A DNA stretch of 34,681 nt from SAR202 cluster bacterium AG-426-M11 (GTDB lineage: Bacteria; Chloroflexota; Dehalococcoidia; Lucifugimonadales; UBA826), in the NCBI GenBank assembly GCA_003213095.1, contig QCNV01000013.1:1-34681 (forward strand). Reading direction: 5' to 3'. Below are positions 8,889 to 29,890 of this stretch, one piece after another; positions within the stretch are counted from its first letter, which is position 1, and the number at the start of each line of letters is the position of its first letter. Made by a program: the position numbers and the translations under genes. The notes beneath the pieces were generated by a model. It had not been told where the DNA came from. It saw nothing but the letters and a program-made list of their open reading frames with translations, and did not search any database.

Positions 8889-9821
8889 CTAGGAATCAAT
8901 AGGAGTGTTCTCTAGGTTACCCCATTCAGTCCATGAACCATCGTACACTGCAACATTTTCATATCCAAGTAATTCTTGTAATACAAACCAGCTGTGGGTA
9001 GCTCGTACGGCAGTTTGACACAAAGTGTAAATATCTAGCTCATTTGTTACAGAAGTAGAATTGTATAAATTCTTTAGATCTTCAGCTGGTAAAAATTTAC
9101 CATCTGCGTCAACATTTTGTACCCATTCTACGTGTATGGATTCAGGGATGTGTCCTCCTCTTTCAGCCCTAACGTCTCTACCAGCATATTCATCGGCAGA
9201 TCTAGTATCTAAAACTATTGAAGTCTCATCATCAATTGACTCCATTACTTTTTGTAAAGATATGATTAGTTCAGGCTTTGCCTCTCCCGTAAAAGAATAT
9301 TTTGAGGAAGATATGGAAGTCGAATCTGATGTTATTTTTTTACCTTCTGATTCCCAGAGTGCATAAGACCCGTCCATGAGTTTTGTATCTTTATGGCCGT
9401 ATACTTCTAGAGTCCAAAGCAGTCTGCTAGCCCAAAGATTTTTAATGTGGTCGACTACTACAATTGTGTCAGTATCTTTTATTCCTAATGCACTTAGCTT
9501 AGTAGACATTTCATTTTCAGAAGGAATTAAACCTTTGACTCCATCTCTTTCTACTTGTAGTTCTTTATAAGATAGATTGACTGAGTCAGGAATATGTCCT
9601 GCGGCATAATCTTCAGGTAACCTGATGTCGATAATTTTCAAGTTTTTGTCATCTAATCGCTCTTCAACCCATGAGGTTGAAACTAATTTGTCAGTAGAAG
9701 CGTATCCTTTAGATTCTAATGATGTGTCAGAATTGGACTCATCAGAAGAACACCCTATGAATAATAGCGATGATAAAGCAAGCAAAAATATTGTTTGAAG
9801 TGAAATAATTTTTTTAATCAT
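8889..9821 (-). CDS. Tandem-rhodanese sulfurtransferase, predicted lipoprotein
   Basis: Lipobox LFIGC after hydrophobic signal; two rhodanese domains; active-site-like LCQTAVRATHSW in the C-terminal domain. Confidence 0.9.
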   Translation of the reverse strand: MIKKIISLQTIFLLALSSLLFIGCSSDESNSDTSLESKGYASTDKLVSTSWVEERLDDKNLKIIDIRLPEDYAAGHIPDSVNLSYKELQVERDGVKGLIPSENEMSTKLSALGIKDTDTIVVVDHIKNLWASRLLWTLEVYGHKDTKLMDGSYALWESEGKKITSDSTSISSSKYSFTGEAKPELIISLQKVMESIDDETSIVLDTRSADEYAGRDVRAERGGHIPESIHVEWVQNVDADGKFLPAEDLKNLYNSTSVTNELDIYTLCQTAVRATHSWFVLQELLGYENVAVYDGSWTEWGNLENTPIDS

Positions 9822-9828
9822 TTGATTC

Positions 9829-10062
9829 CTATTTGAATAATTTAATTTTCCATTCTCCCGGCTTAATTTCTTCTATTTCACAGCCGTAACCTCTTTTCAT
9901 GGCTTCAGGTGGAATAGTTGAAAGGGCAGGGGGATGATCAGTTATTACATCTAATGAATTGGGCTTAGGGTCTGATTCGTCTAATTCTCGATTTGTTCGG
10001 AGCATAGGATAGGGACATATTTCGCCTCGTACATCTAGGGTCGCTATCTCAGTTTGTTCCAT
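9829..10062 (-). CDS. TusA/SirA-like sulfur carrier protein
   Basis: 77-aa ORF with LDVRGEICPYPML (CPxP motif); strong SD AAAGGAG upstream. Confidence 0.9.
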   Translation of the reverse strand: MEQTEIATLDVRGEICPYPMLRTNRELDESDPKPNSLDVITDHPPALSTIPPEAMKRGYGCEIEEIKPGEWKIKLFK

Positions 10063-10081
10063 TTAAACTCCTTTTTTTGTC

Positions 10082-10115
10082 AAAAAAAATCCCCGCTCAA
10101 TTTGTTTGGCGGGGA
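10082..10115 (-). terminator. Rho-independent terminator/attenuator upstream of tusA-like gene
   Basis: Minus strand TCCCCGC-CAAACAAATTGA-GCGGGGA followed by T8; lies upstream of the gene, after a poly-Cys uORF. Confidence 0.85.
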
Positions 10116-10142
10116 ATTATGGACCGTGTGTATTCCTCGCTG

Positions 10143-10193
10143 TTAGCGCATACAACAACAACAATTCATTTGGTTTGATGATAATTTAATCAT
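10143..10193 (-). CDS. Leader peptide MIKLSSNQMNCCCCMR (poly-Cys uORF)
   Basis: Minus strand ATG ATT AAA TTA TCA TCA AAC CAA ATG AAT TGT TGT TGT TGT ATG CGC TAA; four consecutive Cys codons next to an attenuator-like terminator. Confidence 0.7.
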   Translation of the reverse strand: MIKLSSNQMNCCCCMR

Positions 10194-10199
10194 AGGAAA

Positions 10200-10228
10200 A
10201 CTTTAACAATGAGCTAAATTGTTGTCAA
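10200..10228 (-). promoter_or_regulatory. Predicted sigma70-type promoter for the leader/tusA operon
   Basis: TTGACA - 17 nt - TAAAGT; expected +1 is at or next to the A of the leader ATG (10193), i.e. leaderless. Confidence 0.6.
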
Positions 10229-10249
10229 ATTATCGAAATGCAATAAAAT
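10222..10249 (+). promoter_or_regulatory. Predicted promoter for the yeeE-like gene, sharing -35 DNA with the divergent promoter
   Basis: TTGTCA - 16 nt - TAAAAT on plus strand upstream of ATG 10276. Confidence 0.5.
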
Positions 10250-10275
10250 GAATCAATAAATCGATAGGACATAAA

Positions 10276-11520
10276 ATGCAATCTACTCAAAGTGATGTAA
10301 ACAATTCAAAAGACTTGTATTTTTACGCTAGCATTTTGATATTAGTAGCTATTTTTGGAGTTTGGTTGACATCTCTAGTATTTGAGTTAGGTGGGGCAGG
10401 GGTATATTGGATAGCTGGAATTGCTTTTGGTGTTACTGTTCAGAGAAGTAGGTTTTGTTTTACTTCAGCATTTAGAGATTATTTTCTTTTAGGTCAAACT
10501 CGAATTCTAAAAGGTATTTTGGTAGGCCTTGTAGTTGCATCAGTTGGCTTTGCAATGATTATGAGTACAGTAGTTCCAAATCCTGATTTTGGATCTCCCC
10601 CTTCAGATGCCAATTTATTACCCGTAGGTTTATCTACAATACTTGCTGGATCATTATTTGGGGTTGGTATGGTACTCGCAGGTGGATGTGTTTCTGGATC
10701 TCTTTATAGAATGGGAGAAGGGTATGTTGCTTCTTGGTTTGTTATTTTAGGAGTAATGGTAGGTCTTTTTTTCTTAAATAACACATGGAATTGGTGGTGG
10801 GATAATTTAATTTCTACTGAATCTAACATTTGGTTACCTGAATATTTGTCTTACTCAGGATCTATCTTAGTTACTTTGATTTCTATTTTGTTTATTCTGT
10901 ATTTAGCTGTTCGTAAAGAACGAAAAGTAAATGCTGGATTTGTTATGCCAGTAATCACCAAAAAATTTTCAGAACCTCATATTACATCTACATTAGGAGA
11001 GATTTTTAGTTACTTTAAGAAACCTTTTAATACTGAATGGAATCCTATTTTAGCGGGAGTAATTCTAGCTTTTATAAATATTTTACTATTTATAAAATTT
11101 CACCCATTTGGTGTAGTTGGTGAGATTTCTCGTTGGTCAACTGATATATCTCAAATGATCGGATTCCCAGAGCTTGAATTAAGAGGACTAGAGGGTTTGG
11201 GTGCATGTGTGATGATAGTTACTGAAGGCTCTTGGTTTACAGAAGGATTTTTCTTTAATGTGGGAATAATAGCAGGTTCTGCTGCTTCCTCAATTTTGTC
11301 CAGAGAATTTAAAGTTCGAATCCCAAAATCTCCTAGGAGATATATTCAATCTTTAATTGGTGGAACAATTATGGGTTATGGTGCAGGTTTAGGTGTTGGA
11401 TGTACATTAGGGGCATTTTTTTCTGCTATCCCATCTTTGGCACTAAATGGATGGGTTTACGGAGCAGGACTATGTGTAGGGGCATATCTTGGTGTTCAAA
11501 TCATAAAAAGATTTCCTTAA
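10276..11520 (+). CDS. YeeE/YedE family sulfur-compound transporter
   Basis: 414-aa polytopic ORF with family motifs GVTVQRSRFCFTSAFRD, LAGGCVSGSLYRMGEGY, GAGLGVGCTLGAFFSAIPSLALNGWVYG. Confidence 0.9.
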   Translation: MQSTQSDVNNSKDLYFYASILILVAIFGVWLTSLVFELGGAGVYWIAGIAFGVTVQRSRFCFTSAFRDYFLLGQTRILKGILVGLVVASVGFAMIMSTVVPNPDFGSPPSDANLLPVGLSTILAGSLFGVGMVLAGGCVSGSLYRMGEGYVASWFVILGVMVGLFFLNNTWNWWWDNLISTESNIWLPEYLSYSGSILVTLISILFILYLAVRKERKVNAGFVMPVITKKFSEPHITSTLGEIFSYFKKPFNTEWNPILAGVILAFINILLFIKFHPFGVVGEISRWSTDISQMIGFPELELRGLEGLGACVMIVTEGSWFTEGFFFNVGIIAGSAASSILSREFKVRIPKSPRRYIQSLIGGTIMGYGAGLGVGCTLGAFFSAIPSLALNGWVYGAGLCVGAYLGVQIIKRFP

Positions 11521-11532
11521 AACTGTTTGAAA

Positions 11533-11748
11533 ATGATTGATTTAATTAACTCTAATATGAAAGTACAAATAGATGAAATCCATCGACTGTTGAATGAATT
11601 TGATGGTTCCAAAGACCTTGAGGTTTTGGTCAGTTCTTCAATTGTTGGTTCTAACGCTTTGTCACAGGCAGCTTCTCAAGGAATCAAATGTCGAGTTGAG
11701 CCATATGGAAAAGATTTTTGGAAGATTGTTTTGGTTTCTAATTCATAA
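11533..11748 (+). CDS. Small TusA-like protein lacking CPxP
   Basis: Follows yeeE-like gene; C-terminal GIKCRVEPYGKDFWKIVL resembles GYGCEIEEIKPGEWKIKL of the upstream TusA; ORF track uses TTG at 11527, ATG at 11533 more likely. Confidence 0.55.
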   Translation: MIDLINSNMKVQIDEIHRLLNEFDGSKDLEVLVSSSIVGSNALSQAASQGIKCRVEPYGKDFWKIVLVSNS

Positions 11749-11840
11749 ATAACATATAGGTTAAATTTTATTTCTTATCTTGTTCTTGATTTCTAATGAA
11801 TAACCAAAGACAATGCCCTAAATTTACTTGGAGTTGATGG

Positions 11841-13181
11841 ATGAGTATTTCTGAGATAATTCAAAGAGAAATAGATCAATATGTTTCGAGAACTCCTATG
11901 TCTGCAAAAATGCAACAAAATGCAGAATTGTTTTTGCCAGGTGGTAGTTCAAGAGGTACTGCTTATTTCGATCCGTATCCTCACTTCATTGAAAAAGGTG
12001 AAGGTCATTACATCATTGATGTAGATGGGAATAAATACTTAGATTTTATGATTAATGCTACGAGTTTGATACTAGGGCATTCTAATTCTAATGTGGCGTC
12101 AGTGGTCAAAGATCAAGCAGACAAAGGTTTAGCATTTAGTGGGCCTACAGATTCTCAAGTTAGGCTAGCTAAGCTGCTTACAGATCGTATTCCTTCTGTA
12201 GAGACTATTAGGTTTACTAATTCAGGAACTGAAGGGACTATGATGGCTATACGTGCGGCTAGGGAATTTACTGGAAGGAGTAAAATTGTAAAAATTGAAG
12301 GAGGGTATCATGGGACTCATGAGGATGTTGCTGTAAGTGTGTATCCGAATAAAGATCATTTAGATCCTATTCAAACTGCTCCCATTCCAGAATATTCAAA
12401 TCAACCAAGTTCAGTTTTGGATAATGTCATTGTGGTTCCTTACAATGATATCGAAGTAACCAATCAAATGATCCGTGCTGAATCAAAAAATATTTCATGT
12501 GTAATTATCGAACCTGTAGTCTCATCATTTGGGTACACCCCTGCAAATGTGGACTACTTACAGTTTGTTAGAGATATTACAACTGAACTAGGTATTGTTT
12601 TGATTTATGACGAAGTTCAAAGTTTTAGAGTTTCTCCTGGAGGAGCTCAGGAATTGTTAGGTGTGATCCCTGACATGACTACTCTAGGTAAAATTATTGG
12701 TGGTGGTATGCCTGTAGGAGCTTTTGGGGGCCGACGAGACATTATGGATTTATATAATCCGACTGACGGAGGGGCCCAAATTGGCCATGCCGGAACTTTT
12801 AATGCTAATCCTGTGACTATGAGGGCAGGAGAGGTTGTGATGAATACTTTAACTCCAGAAGCGTATTCTAGAATGAATGATCTTGGAGAAATTTTAAGAA
12901 GCAAACTTAAAGCTGTTTTTGACGAATTAAACATTGAAGTTCAGGTGACAGGAATAGGTTCTTTATTTGGAGTTCATTTTACTGCCGAACATATCCAAAA
13001 TTATAGGAATGTTGTTAATGCTGATACAGATATGAAAAAAGCATTTTTCTTTGGGATGCTTAATGAAGGTATTTTGTTACAAGGTGGAGCTGCAGGTTCT
13101 CTGAATATTTGTACAACTGAAGAGCATGTGGATAATTTTGTTGATTCAGCAAGGAAAGTAGTAATCAGAATCTGTAAGTAA
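11841..13181 (+). CDS. Class III aminotransferase (glutamate-1-semialdehyde 2,1-aminomutase-like)
   Basis: FTNSGTEGTMMAIRAAREFTGRSKIVKIEGGYHGTHED, LIYDEVQSFR, TTLGKIIGGGMPVGAFGGRRDIM (PLP Lys). Confidence 0.93.
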   Translation: MSISEIIQREIDQYVSRTPMSAKMQQNAELFLPGGSSRGTAYFDPYPHFIEKGEGHYIIDVDGNKYLDFMINATSLILGHSNSNVASVVKDQADKGLAFSGPTDSQVRLAKLLTDRIPSVETIRFTNSGTEGTMMAIRAAREFTGRSKIVKIEGGYHGTHEDVAVSVYPNKDHLDPIQTAPIPEYSNQPSSVLDNVIVVPYNDIEVTNQMIRAESKNISCVIIEPVVSSFGYTPANVDYLQFVRDITTELGIVLIYDEVQSFRVSPGGAQELLGVIPDMTTLGKIIGGGMPVGAFGGRRDIMDLYNPTDGGAQIGHAGTFNANPVTMRAGEVVMNTLTPEAYSRMNDLGEILRSKLKAVFDELNIEVQVTGIGSLFGVHFTAEHIQNYRNVVNADTDMKKAFFFGMLNEGILLQGGAAGSLNICTTEEHVDNFVDSARKVVIRICK

Positions 13182-13211
13182 CATCTTCATTACAATTTTG
13201 ATATTAATAGA

Positions 13212-13288
13212 TGGAGGCGACGAAGGGATTCGAACCCTTGAATAGAGGTTTTGCAGACCTCCGCCTTAGACCGCTTGGCTACGTCGCC
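13212..13288 (-). tRNA. tRNA-Cys (GCA), CCA encoded
   Basis: GGCGACG...CTGCAAA...GGTTCGAATCC...CGTCGCC-T-CCA cloverleaf on minus strand. Confidence 0.95.
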
Positions 13289-13302
13289 TAATCAAGTGTA
13301 AT

Positions 13303-13390
13303 TGGTGCCGAGGAGGAGACTCGAACTCCTACAGCCTATTCGGCCACAGCGCCCTCAACGCTGCGTGTCTACCAATTCCACCACCTCGGC
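13303..13390 (-). tRNA. tRNA-Leu (GAG), CCA encoded
   Basis: GCCGAGG...CAGCGTTGAGGGCGCTG...long variable arm...AGTTCGAGTCT...CCTCGGC-A-CCA on minus strand. Confidence 0.95.
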
Positions 13391-13509
13391 ATAATTATTT
13401 ATAACCGAATTCTTTGGTAATGAGGAATTATATCTTTTAGAAAAATTACTGTCCACAATTTTATGAATTTGTAGTTTAATTAAGTCACAATTTTTTTTAG
13501 AGAGAGATT

Positions 13510-16500
13510 ATGTTTCAATCAGTAAATTCTAAAGTTGACTTTCCAAAGTTGGAAAATGAAATATTAAATTGGTGGGAAGAAAATAATATTCCTGACAAAT
13601 ACATGTCCAAAAATGAAAACTCTGATAAACGTTATTCGTTTATTGATGGCCCAATTACAGCCAATAATCCTATGGGAGTTCATCATGCTTGGGGTAGAAG
13701 TTATAAAGATTTGTTTGCAAGATTTAGAACAATGCAAGGTTATAAGCAGAGATATCAAAATGGTTTTGACGGCCAAGGATTGTGGATAGAGGTTGAGGTA
13801 GAAAAGGAATTGGGTTTTCAATCAAAAACTGATATTGAAAAATTTGGGGTTGGTAAATTTGTAACAAAATGTAAAGAGCGGGTACAGAAATTTGCTGATA
13901 TCATCACTTCACAGTCTATTAGGCTAGCTCAATGGAATCATTGGGATAATTCTTATCACACGATGTCTGATGAAAACAATTACACCATTTGGCATTTTTT
14001 GAAAACGTGCCAAGAAAGAGATTTAATTTATCAAGGAACAGATGTGATGCCTTGGTGTCCTAGGTGTAGTACGGGACTTTCTGAGCACGAAATTGTCACA
14101 GAAGGATATATAGAAACCGATCACCCCGGATTATTTGTTAAATTCCCAATTTTAGATTCGGGGTCAAAAAGAACTCCAAATGAATCTATTTTGATTTGGA
14201 CAACTACTCCATGGACGTTGTCTTCAAATTGTGCTGCTGCAGTAAATGAAGATATGGATTATGTCAAAGTTGAACAAGATGGTGAATTTTATTATTTAGC
14301 AAAATCTCGACTTAATATTCTCAAAGGTGAGCATGAGATAGTTAGTCATATGAAAGGTAAAGATTTAGTAGGCTTAAAGTATCAAGGTCCTTTCGATGAA
14401 TTGCCAGTACAAAAAGATCGAGATCATAGAGTATTAGCATGGGATGAAGTTTCTGAAGGTGAGGGAACTGGAATTGTTCATATTGCACCAGGAGCTGGTA
14501 AAGAAGACTTTGCTTTGGGTAAAAGAGAAGGAATTGAACCCATAGCACCATTGAATGATCTTGGAGATTTTATTGAAGGATTTGATTGGTTGACCGGCTT
14601 AAATGTATACGACGTAAATGAGAAGATTTATGAGAGTCTTAAATCTAAAAATGTCTTTTATAGAGTTGAAAAATATCGTCACAGATATCCTCATTGTTGG
14701 AGGTGTGGTTCAGAACTTGTTTTCAGATTAGTTAATGAATGGTTTATAAAAATGGACCCCCTTAGAGACTCATTGGCTAGGGTAACGCAAAATATTAATT
14801 GGGTACCTGAATTTGGTATGAAACGTGAATTGGATTGGTTGAAAAACATGGATGATTGGATGATCTCCAAAAAAAGATACTATGGTTTAGCGTTGCCAAT
14901 TTGGGAATTTGAAGATGGTTCATTTTATGTTGTTGGCTCTAAAGAAGAATTGAAAAAATTGGCAATCGAAGGATGGGATGATTTTGACGGGAATAGTCCT
15001 CATAGGCCTTGGATAGATAATGTAAAAATTCGACACCCTGAATCTGGATTAATTGGAACAAGAATTCTAGATGTTGGCAATCCATGGTTAGATGCTGGCA
15101 TTGTGTCATTTTCTACTTTGAATTACAGAAATGATAGAGATTATTGGAAAGAATGGTTTCCTGCAGATTGGATTTCAGAAAGTTTTCCTGGTCAATATAG
15201 AAATTGGTTTTATTCGTTATTAACTATGAGTACAGTGTTAGCTGATTCTGAGCCTTGTAAAAACATTTTTAGCTATGCTTTGATGAGAGATCAAAATGGT
15301 GAAGAAATGCATAAGAGTAAGGGGAATGCAATTTGGTTTGAAGATGCTGCAGACAAAATGGGCGTAGATGCTATGAGATGGCAATTTGCAAGCCAGAACC
15401 CTGCGTCAAATTTGAATTTTGGATTTGAAACTGCTGATGAAGTGAGACGACAATTTTTGATTCCTTTCTGGAATGTTTATTCATTTTTTGTAACTTATGC
15501 CAATATTGATCAATTTGATCCAGATTCTAAGTTTCCGGAACTTTCAGAAAGATCTGAGTTAGATAGGTGGATTATTTCAGAATTAAACTCATTAATATCT
15601 TATGTGACCAACGGATTAGAAAGTTTTGAACCAGAAAAAATTACTAGAGAAGTAGAAAATTTTATGGAATTTTTATCCAATTGGTATGTTAGGAGAAGTA
15701 GGCGTAGGTTTTGGAAGTCAGGGTTACTTAACATTGATGAAGATGCAGATTTAGATAAATTATCAGCATATTCAACTTTATATGAAGTTTTGGTTACACT
15801 ATCAAAATTACTTGCTCCAGTAATTCCATTTGTCACAGAAAGTATTTATCAAAATTTAGTTGCCAATACTAAAAAAGGTAGACAAAGTGTTCATTTGGAA
15901 GATTATCCATTAGTAGATAACAATGCTGTGGATGAAGATTTAGTATCTAGGATTAGGTTAGCTATGAAGATTTCTAGTTTAGGGCGATCTGCTAGAAGTA
16001 AAGCGAACATCAAAGTCAGGCAACCATTACAGAATTTGTATGTTAAAACTAGAGATCAAAATGAAATTAAAATGCTAGATTCTATACAAGATCAAATTAT
16101 TGATGAACTAAATGTGAAATCCATTGTTCCAATAGATAATGCGGCTGAAATCATAAAGTTTAAGATTCAACCAAATTTGCCAGTTTTAGGACCAAAATTA
16201 GGGAATCAAATTGCTCAGATCAAAAAAGAGCTGGATCAGATAGATCCCGAAATTATTAGATCTTCTGTATCACAAGGAAAGTCAGTTCTAGTTGCAGGCA
16301 ATGAACTGACTGGTGAAGATTTTCTGATTGGTTCTGAAGAACTTGAAGGGTATTCAACTTCCATGGAAGGGCCATATGCAGTGGGAATCTCTATAAATAT
16401 TTCTGAAGATTTAATTCACGAAGGTATTGCTAGAGAATTGGTTCATAAAATTCAAAACATGAGAAGATCAGCAGACTTTGAAATATCAGACCATATTGAA

Positions 16501-29792: not shown

Positions 29793-29890
29793 GGGGGCGG
29801 ATGGGGCCTGGTGGTCCCCGCGGACTTCAACTCCGTTGGCAGCGGTCCTTCGATTGGTGCGGTGGGTTCGACTCCCTCGCGCTCCCGCCA
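29793..29890 (+). tRNA. selC: tRNA-Sec (UCA anticodon), CCA encoded
   Basis: 98-nt gene with anticodon arm GCGGA-CTTCAAC-TCCGT (TCA), long D stem GGGGCC..GGTCCCC, long variable arm GCAGCGGT..ATTGGTGC, GGTTCGACTCCC, 3' GCCA; a couple of acceptor/T-stem pairs look mismatched by hand. Confidence 0.87.

Follow-up and report, generated by a model that had tools for sequence, protein, structure and literature searches.

Upstream of a tusA-rhodanese operon, the minus strand of the window (the whole 34,681-nt stretch of SAR202 DNA analyzed here) very probably carries a ribosome-mediated transcription attenuator, which would read the charging of tRNA-Cys and control this operon. Judged from comparative sequence analysis, it would be one of a series of similar SAR202 attenuators that precede genes that serve the transport of sulfur, the use of sulfonates, and the synthesis of Met and Cys. 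The initial annotation had interpreted the locus as a cysteine attenuator; this interpretation was supported and could be widened, because orthologs were found in three genera and independent Cys leaders were located before other sulfur genes.

Leader, Promoter, and Regulated Genes

The leader ORF MIKLSSNQMNCCCCMR (10143–10193, minus strand; all leader peptides are written up to their stop codon) had no Shine-Dalgarno (SD) site. It contained the four consecutive Cys codons TGT TGT TGT TGT (10152–10163, minus strand) that the initial annotation had described as a run in a short ORF, and relatives kept CCC or CRCCC. A promoter overlooked in that first reading was located upstream of the leader, within a promoter-pattern match at 10191–10228. 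It comprised a −35 element TTGACA (10223–10228, minus strand) and, 17 nt away, a −10 element TAAAGT (10200–10205, minus strand), the 3′ end of which lay 6 nt 5′ of the leader ATG. This TTGACA-17-TAAAGT-6-ATG spacing placed the predicted transcription start at or beside the A of the leader ATG. The leader of the tusA attenuator is thus probably leaderless, which would explain the missing SD site. The same geometry of TTGACA, −10 element, and ATG was present in the Cys leaders of relatives, and an SD-like motif was found in none of 32 leaders (13 nt inspected) vs. 15 of 20 downstream structural genes. The structural gene of the YeeE operons in family f29 likewise had no SD site, and its ATG followed the T tract directly or nearly directly.

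The first regulated gene encoded a TusA-family sulfur carrier of 77 aa (9829–10062, minus strand; Pfam PF01206, 58.6 bits). As claimed before, its SD (AAGGAG, just upstream) and its ATG (10062) came after the terminator. The second gene, 7 nt 3′ of tusA, encoded a probable lipoprotein of 310 aa with two rhodanese domains (8889–9821, minus strand; Pfam PF00581, 121 bits in two stretches), and a Cys lipobox was visible in its sequence. The divergent gene on the other side encoded a YeeE/TsuA-type sulfur transporter (10276–11520, plus strand; Pfam PF04143, 220 bits), and in other SAR202 genera this type of gene was itself found behind a Cys leader. The best NCBIfam matches below threshold were YedE/FdhT and YedF, all far from the cut-off, and TsuA matched as well. 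A tRNA-Sec gene was also detected in the window (29793–29886, plus strand), and tRNA-Sec scored above the cut-off in 14 of 16 family genomes.

Antiterminator, Terminator, and Folding

Three alternative pairings had been proposed for the region between leader and tusA, and all of them were found base for base on the minus strand. The region 1:2 hairpin CGCT-AAC-AGCG (10138–10148) spanned the leader stop codon and also formed when folding was constrained by a ribosome placed at the first Cys codon. Region 2, GCGAGGAAT (10132–10140), formed the 5′ arm of the antiterminator. Its duplex with region 3 contained one A-C mismatch and gave p values of about 0.002–0.011 against shuffles. Region 3, ATTCCCCGC (10109–10117), was both the 3′ arm of the antiterminator and the 5′ arm of the terminator in the sequence and in constrained folds, so the two structures are mutually exclusive. 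Region 4, GCGGGGA (10090–10096), supplied the 3′ arm of the terminator on the same evidence and was followed by a T8 tract (10082–10089). The intrinsic terminator reported between the leader and the TusA-like gene was present.

The folded region was more stable than its shuffles (z −2.3; 3/200). Folding constrained by a ribosome on the Cys codons, with arm 4 not yet made, gave the 2:3 antiterminator (−7.0 kcal/mol); a ribosome placed at the stop codon left only five 2:3 pairs (−2.3 kcal/mol). Spacing and constrained folds agreed in their geometry: a ribosome at the Cys codons frees region 2, and a ribosome at the stop codon covers it. At equilibrium with arm 4 present, the full terminator beat the antiterminator in all ribosome states. 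This indicated that the switch must work through the order of folding, as is accepted for classical attenuators. In the absence of a ribosome, an upstream hairpin forms and the terminator is left free, which would make the default state off. No T-box (RF00230) was matched in the window at 9800–13600 at E up to 1, and no other Rfam element was found at the attenuator locus; a T-box or other Rfam element was accordingly rejected as the identity of the locus.

Conservation and Covariation before tusA

Orthologous loci in three genera (g1, g6, and g2) retained the Cys codons, the frame, the antiterminator, and the terminator. Within the same genus, a near-identical genome had the leader MIKFSSNQMNCCCCMR, and genome G001 (g1) had MNNISSNLTTRGCCCMR, in which one TGC replaced TGT synonymously. 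The leader of genus g6 ended in CRCCCMR. It was taken from locus L173, the contig of which stops at the terminator, and tusA was located on a different contig with a fold-back end; the upstream ends were absent in L002, L004, and L005 because of contig ends. The fold-back palindrome at L004/L027 (G007:C31 end) was centred on the terminator hairpin and was an apparent assembly artefact. Six species of genus g2 shared 31-codon leaders ending in CSCMN. The N-terminal residues of these leaders drifted, with more nonsynonymous than synonymous codon changes, and the frame, the length, and the block TGTTCTTGTATGAATTAACAAGGGGTATTTT were constant across the six species.

The antiterminator helix showed compensatory changes between the genera: GGAAU:AUUCC in g1, GGAUU:AAUCC in g6, and GGGGU:ACCCC in g2, the counterparts of region 2 being GCGAGGATT in g6 and GGGGT in g2. 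The terminator arms also co-varied. The comparison of related genomes that the initial annotation had suggested thus found the Cys codons kept and the arms of both helices covarying, and no loss of the Cys run or the hairpins was seen in the three genera.

Further loci were recorded. In family f9 (L014, L015, L078, L079), the leaders MLTKYEDDLFHLCTSP and MLIRFKDDLFHLCSSPL before tusA had one Cys codon and a terminator, which is possibly a related attenuator. Locus L024 (PBFH01000003.1), labelled as a Rhodospirillaceae bacterium, was nearly identical to this Chloroflexota window and is likely a mislabelled MAG.

Controls and Spacing

Four TGT codons in a row were not rare by themselves: the window genome contained three such runs, the same number as for the control pattern. 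A chance Cys run was nevertheless rejected, because its context exceeded chance, namely the well-spaced promoter, the conservation in relatives, and the residue control. In that control, runs of at least three identical residues near the end of a short ORF were counted before 23 distinct terminators at tusA-selected AT-rich loci, giving nine for Cys, one for Val, and none for the others; several of these loci were related, and the counts are not independent events. Since the leaders were partly found with patterns or models containing Cys, this TusA-selected control, with its few terminators, was the sole unbiased test of the residue.

The antiterminator arm started 7–15 nt past the last Cys codon (sd 2.3; 30 leaders), at about one ribosome edge, vs. 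−44 to +6 nt relative to the stop codon (sd 10.8; 30 leaders). These figures were calculated for 30 of the 32 leaders, L066 and L187 being dropped because the terminator or the last Cys codon was mis-called automatically. The search window of 5 to about 32 nt partly imposed the tightness, but not the clustering inside the window. The arm was thus anchored on the Cys codons and not on the stop codon, which is what stalling at the Cys codons requires. The 2:3 duplex was better than mononucleotide shuffles at p < 0.05 in 23 and at p < 0.01 in 11 of the 32 leaders, the single p values being modest (mostly 0.002–0.2).

Further Cys Leaders and a Proposed Sulfur Regulon

Further leaders were found with a covariance model of the elements and with the leaderless-promoter pattern, and some searches required Cys; the window genome's own regulon was searched by pattern and model only. 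The window genome contained a second Cys leader, MLKILTIECPQQFICSCCCHQNRWEY (G000:C3:55917–56083; L193, L221), with TTGACA-17-TATTAT-6-ATG and then a terminator. It preceded a gene for an SsuD-like LLM monooxygenase, an arrangement conserved in three species, and the enzyme most resembled alkanesulfonate monooxygenase (219.7 bits against a cut-off of 518). This supported the view that the tusA attenuator does not stand alone but would belong to a sulfur regulon, of which the window genome has at least two members.

In genus g2, leaders ending in CSCM(K/S) preceded an XRE regulator (L170, L171, L172, L189 (L129)); a paralogous Cys attenuator before an XRE-type regulator could be part of a regulatory cascade. 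Leaders with clusters of both Met and Cys codons, such as MKPQELSQNNNIVFAHMMCCDMGCCMN of g2, preceded metY-metA (L176, L181, L182, L224, L231), and the metY product matched O-acetylhomoserine sulfhydrylase above the cut-off (666 bits). The mixed codon clusters suggest that metY-metA may be under joint Met/Cys control. Elsewhere in the order, poly-Cys leaders with terminators were found before tusA-containing operons of YeeE/TsuA-type transporters (MKNITNSNCCCCTPLNGVI, MKLYCANVCCCCTCLGRGI, MTKNILTNIMCICCCCMQSIRFL, and others) and before genes for a NIR/SIR reductase, a thioredoxin, a DUF4395 protein, and a RimK-like ATP-grasp protein. By family match, the regulated genes fitted a sulfur pathway of transport, transfer, SsuD-like enzymes, and OAH/OAS sulfhydrylase, and their role is predicted on this basis.

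Two other candidates were noted. L239 (G033:C32), from another family, had the leader MHKMFKCCCCSQEGGLTRFPLATRIAV with TATAAT-6-ATG and a terminator; L187 (G053:C197) had a possible Cys leader, MNSHLKLDCACMH, with TTGACA-17-TAGACT-7-ATG, and its contig ended before the downstream gene. The matches at L177–L180, L183, L184, L186, and L188, together with most class-wide model matches, were ordinary terminators without Cys leaders, which means that outside the order models R1 and R2 do not pick out Cys leaders specifically. L279, L280, the first hit of L264, and most other pattern matches looked like coding sequence or chance.

L251 and L226 were rejected as Cys leaders since both were T-boxes. 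The former (G000:C2:69424–69512) was located before an ilvB-like gene in the window genome, and the latter before ileS in a relative. No T-box was found in the Cys leaders tested. That the lineage has T-boxes before ilvB and ileS makes a leader-peptide solution for cysteine notable. We tentatively propose, at a little under an even chance, that sulfur acquisition in SAR202 is run mainly by many independent leaderless Cys-codon attenuators (dual Met and Cys before metY-metA), one of them controlling a transcription factor, instead of by a CysB- or CymR-like regulator or by cysteine T-boxes.

Proposed Mechanism and Alternative Explanations

In the mechanism that we infer, the RNA polymerase would begin the transcript at or beside the A of the leader ATG, and its leaderless end would be engaged by a ribosome. 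With plentiful Cys-tRNA, the ribosome would pass the four Cys codons, reach the stop codon, and mask region 2; region 3 would then pair with region 4, and transcription would stop at the T8 tract. With scarce Cys-tRNA, the ribosome would stall on the Cys codons, its leading edge stopping immediately 5′ of region 2. The emerging region 3 would pair with region 2, the terminator would come too late, and tusA-rhodanese would be transcribed. This inferred part of the scheme includes the leaderless start, the stalling of the ribosome, the role of cysteine as signal, and the direction in which the switch responds. The parts of the switch, their conservation and covariation, and the Cys-anchored spacing were observed.

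An improbable alternative is that the ribosome is arrested by the nascent Cys-rich tail itself, through metal binding or a reaction with sulfide or persulfide, so that the signal is a metal or reactive sulfur instead of tRNA-Cys charging. The runs CCCC, CxCM, and MCMCCC may resemble metal- or thiol-reactive motifs, the downstream TusA, rhodanese, and thioredoxin handle reactive sulfur, and a nascent exported protein is reported to sense copper in another system (PMC9973294). However, leaders of 8–31 residues are often too short to exit the tunnel, their Cys residues follow no strict pattern (CCCC, CSC, CRCCC, CACM) and have drifting neighbours, Met codons are added in the leaders of metY-metA, and the Cys codons anchor the spacing. 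Stalling for want of charged tRNA-Cys remains the preferred reading.

It is less probable still that the structure is a constitutive terminator or a small RNA with a chance ORF, with tusA transcribed by read-through or from another promoter. The terminator is strong and the TGT run alone is as frequent as the control pattern, but there is no upstream gene on the same strand to terminate (YeeE is divergent), three genera have kept the leader frame and the Cys codons, both of which are seen again before unrelated genes, and the alternative helix shows covariation. A selenium-specific operon (YedE/YedF-like), with a leader responding to selenium or selenocysteine status, was not favoured and has only a very slight chance of being correct: the best NCBIfam matches and the tRNA-Sec in the window point to it, but those matches are far below the cut-off with TsuA matching as well, tRNA-Sec also occurs in family genomes without a tusA match (e.g., G004 and G006), which makes a selenium-only role unlikely, and the codons are UGU/UGC, not UGA, in a leader type also found before sulfonate and methionine genes.

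Sulfur Biology of SAR202

The deep ocean harbours SAR202 bacteria in abundance, and almost none of them have been cultured. The 16 family genomes, the assemblies of which are incomplete, yielded no convincing PAPS reductase; weak partial matches of 20–23 bits were located in ORFs of 558–576 codons. This fits a reliance on reduced or organic sulfur, and a dependence on such sulfur that is rationed by Cys-tRNA is a testable idea. Similar switches before sulfur-scavenging genes in many SAR202 relatives suggest that these bacteria have a common means of rationing sulfur that has not been described before. If the proposed mechanism is true, the switches would provide a list, visible in the sequence, of genes turned on under cysteine shortage, including those for the DUF4395, XRE, and ATP-grasp proteins. 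It would also mean that a terminator-based attenuator can work with leaderless translation and that at least three phyla make use of Cys attenuation.

Comparison with Known Attenuators

The classical trp, his, leu, and phe attenuators share with the SAR202 locus the regulatory codons, the 1:2, 2:3, and 3:4 pairings, and the T tract. The classical leaders have ribosome-binding sites, whereas the SAR202 leader is seemingly leaderless. A weak resemblance to the Rfam Phe_leader was found in two relatives, far below the threshold. The T-box (RF00230) likewise controls amino-acid genes by tRNA charging, but the SAR202 Cys leaders would use the ribosome instead.

Leaderless polycysteine sORFs of mycobacteria are described as cysteine-responsive attenuators (Canestrari et al., 2020, PMC8764745, as cited in PMC9094748 and PMC13236596), and the earlier statement that poly-Cys uORF attenuators had been described in mycobacteria agrees with the latter two sources. 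Shared features, on these accounts, are a short ORF (here predicted to be leaderless), a run of Cys codons, a position before sulfur or cysteine operons, and several copies per genome. For M. smegmatis, translation attenuation is described (PMC13236596), whereas in SAR202 an intrinsic terminator with a competing antiterminator comes after every leader; the lack of an intrinsic terminator, a trait of the mycobacterial type, is thus not found here. The SAR202 leaders also belong to a different phylum and precede mostly other genes (YeeE/TsuA, TusA-rhodanese, SsuD-like, and metY-metA). Candidate cys leader peptides with Cys runs near the stop codon were reported before cys operons in Mycobacterium, Propionibacterium, and Bifidobacterium (PMC1262725, 2005). 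No terminators were found for these actinobacterial leaders and Rho was suggested, but terminators are present in SAR202. In Rhodobacterales, the uORFC-8-2 motif, for which attenuation was proposed, combines tandem Cys codons in a uORF with stems and a terminator U-run (PMC8632094). It is located only upstream of cysS in Alphaproteobacteria and has two conserved Cys codons, whereas the gene here is tusA and the phylum is Chloroflexota.

No description of Cys leader peptides in Chloroflexota was found in the open-access literature searched, an absence that is weak evidence. Actinobacteria and Rhodobacterales were already known to have poly-Cys attenuators, and the terminator-based, predicted leaderless form in Chloroflexota is a new variation on these.
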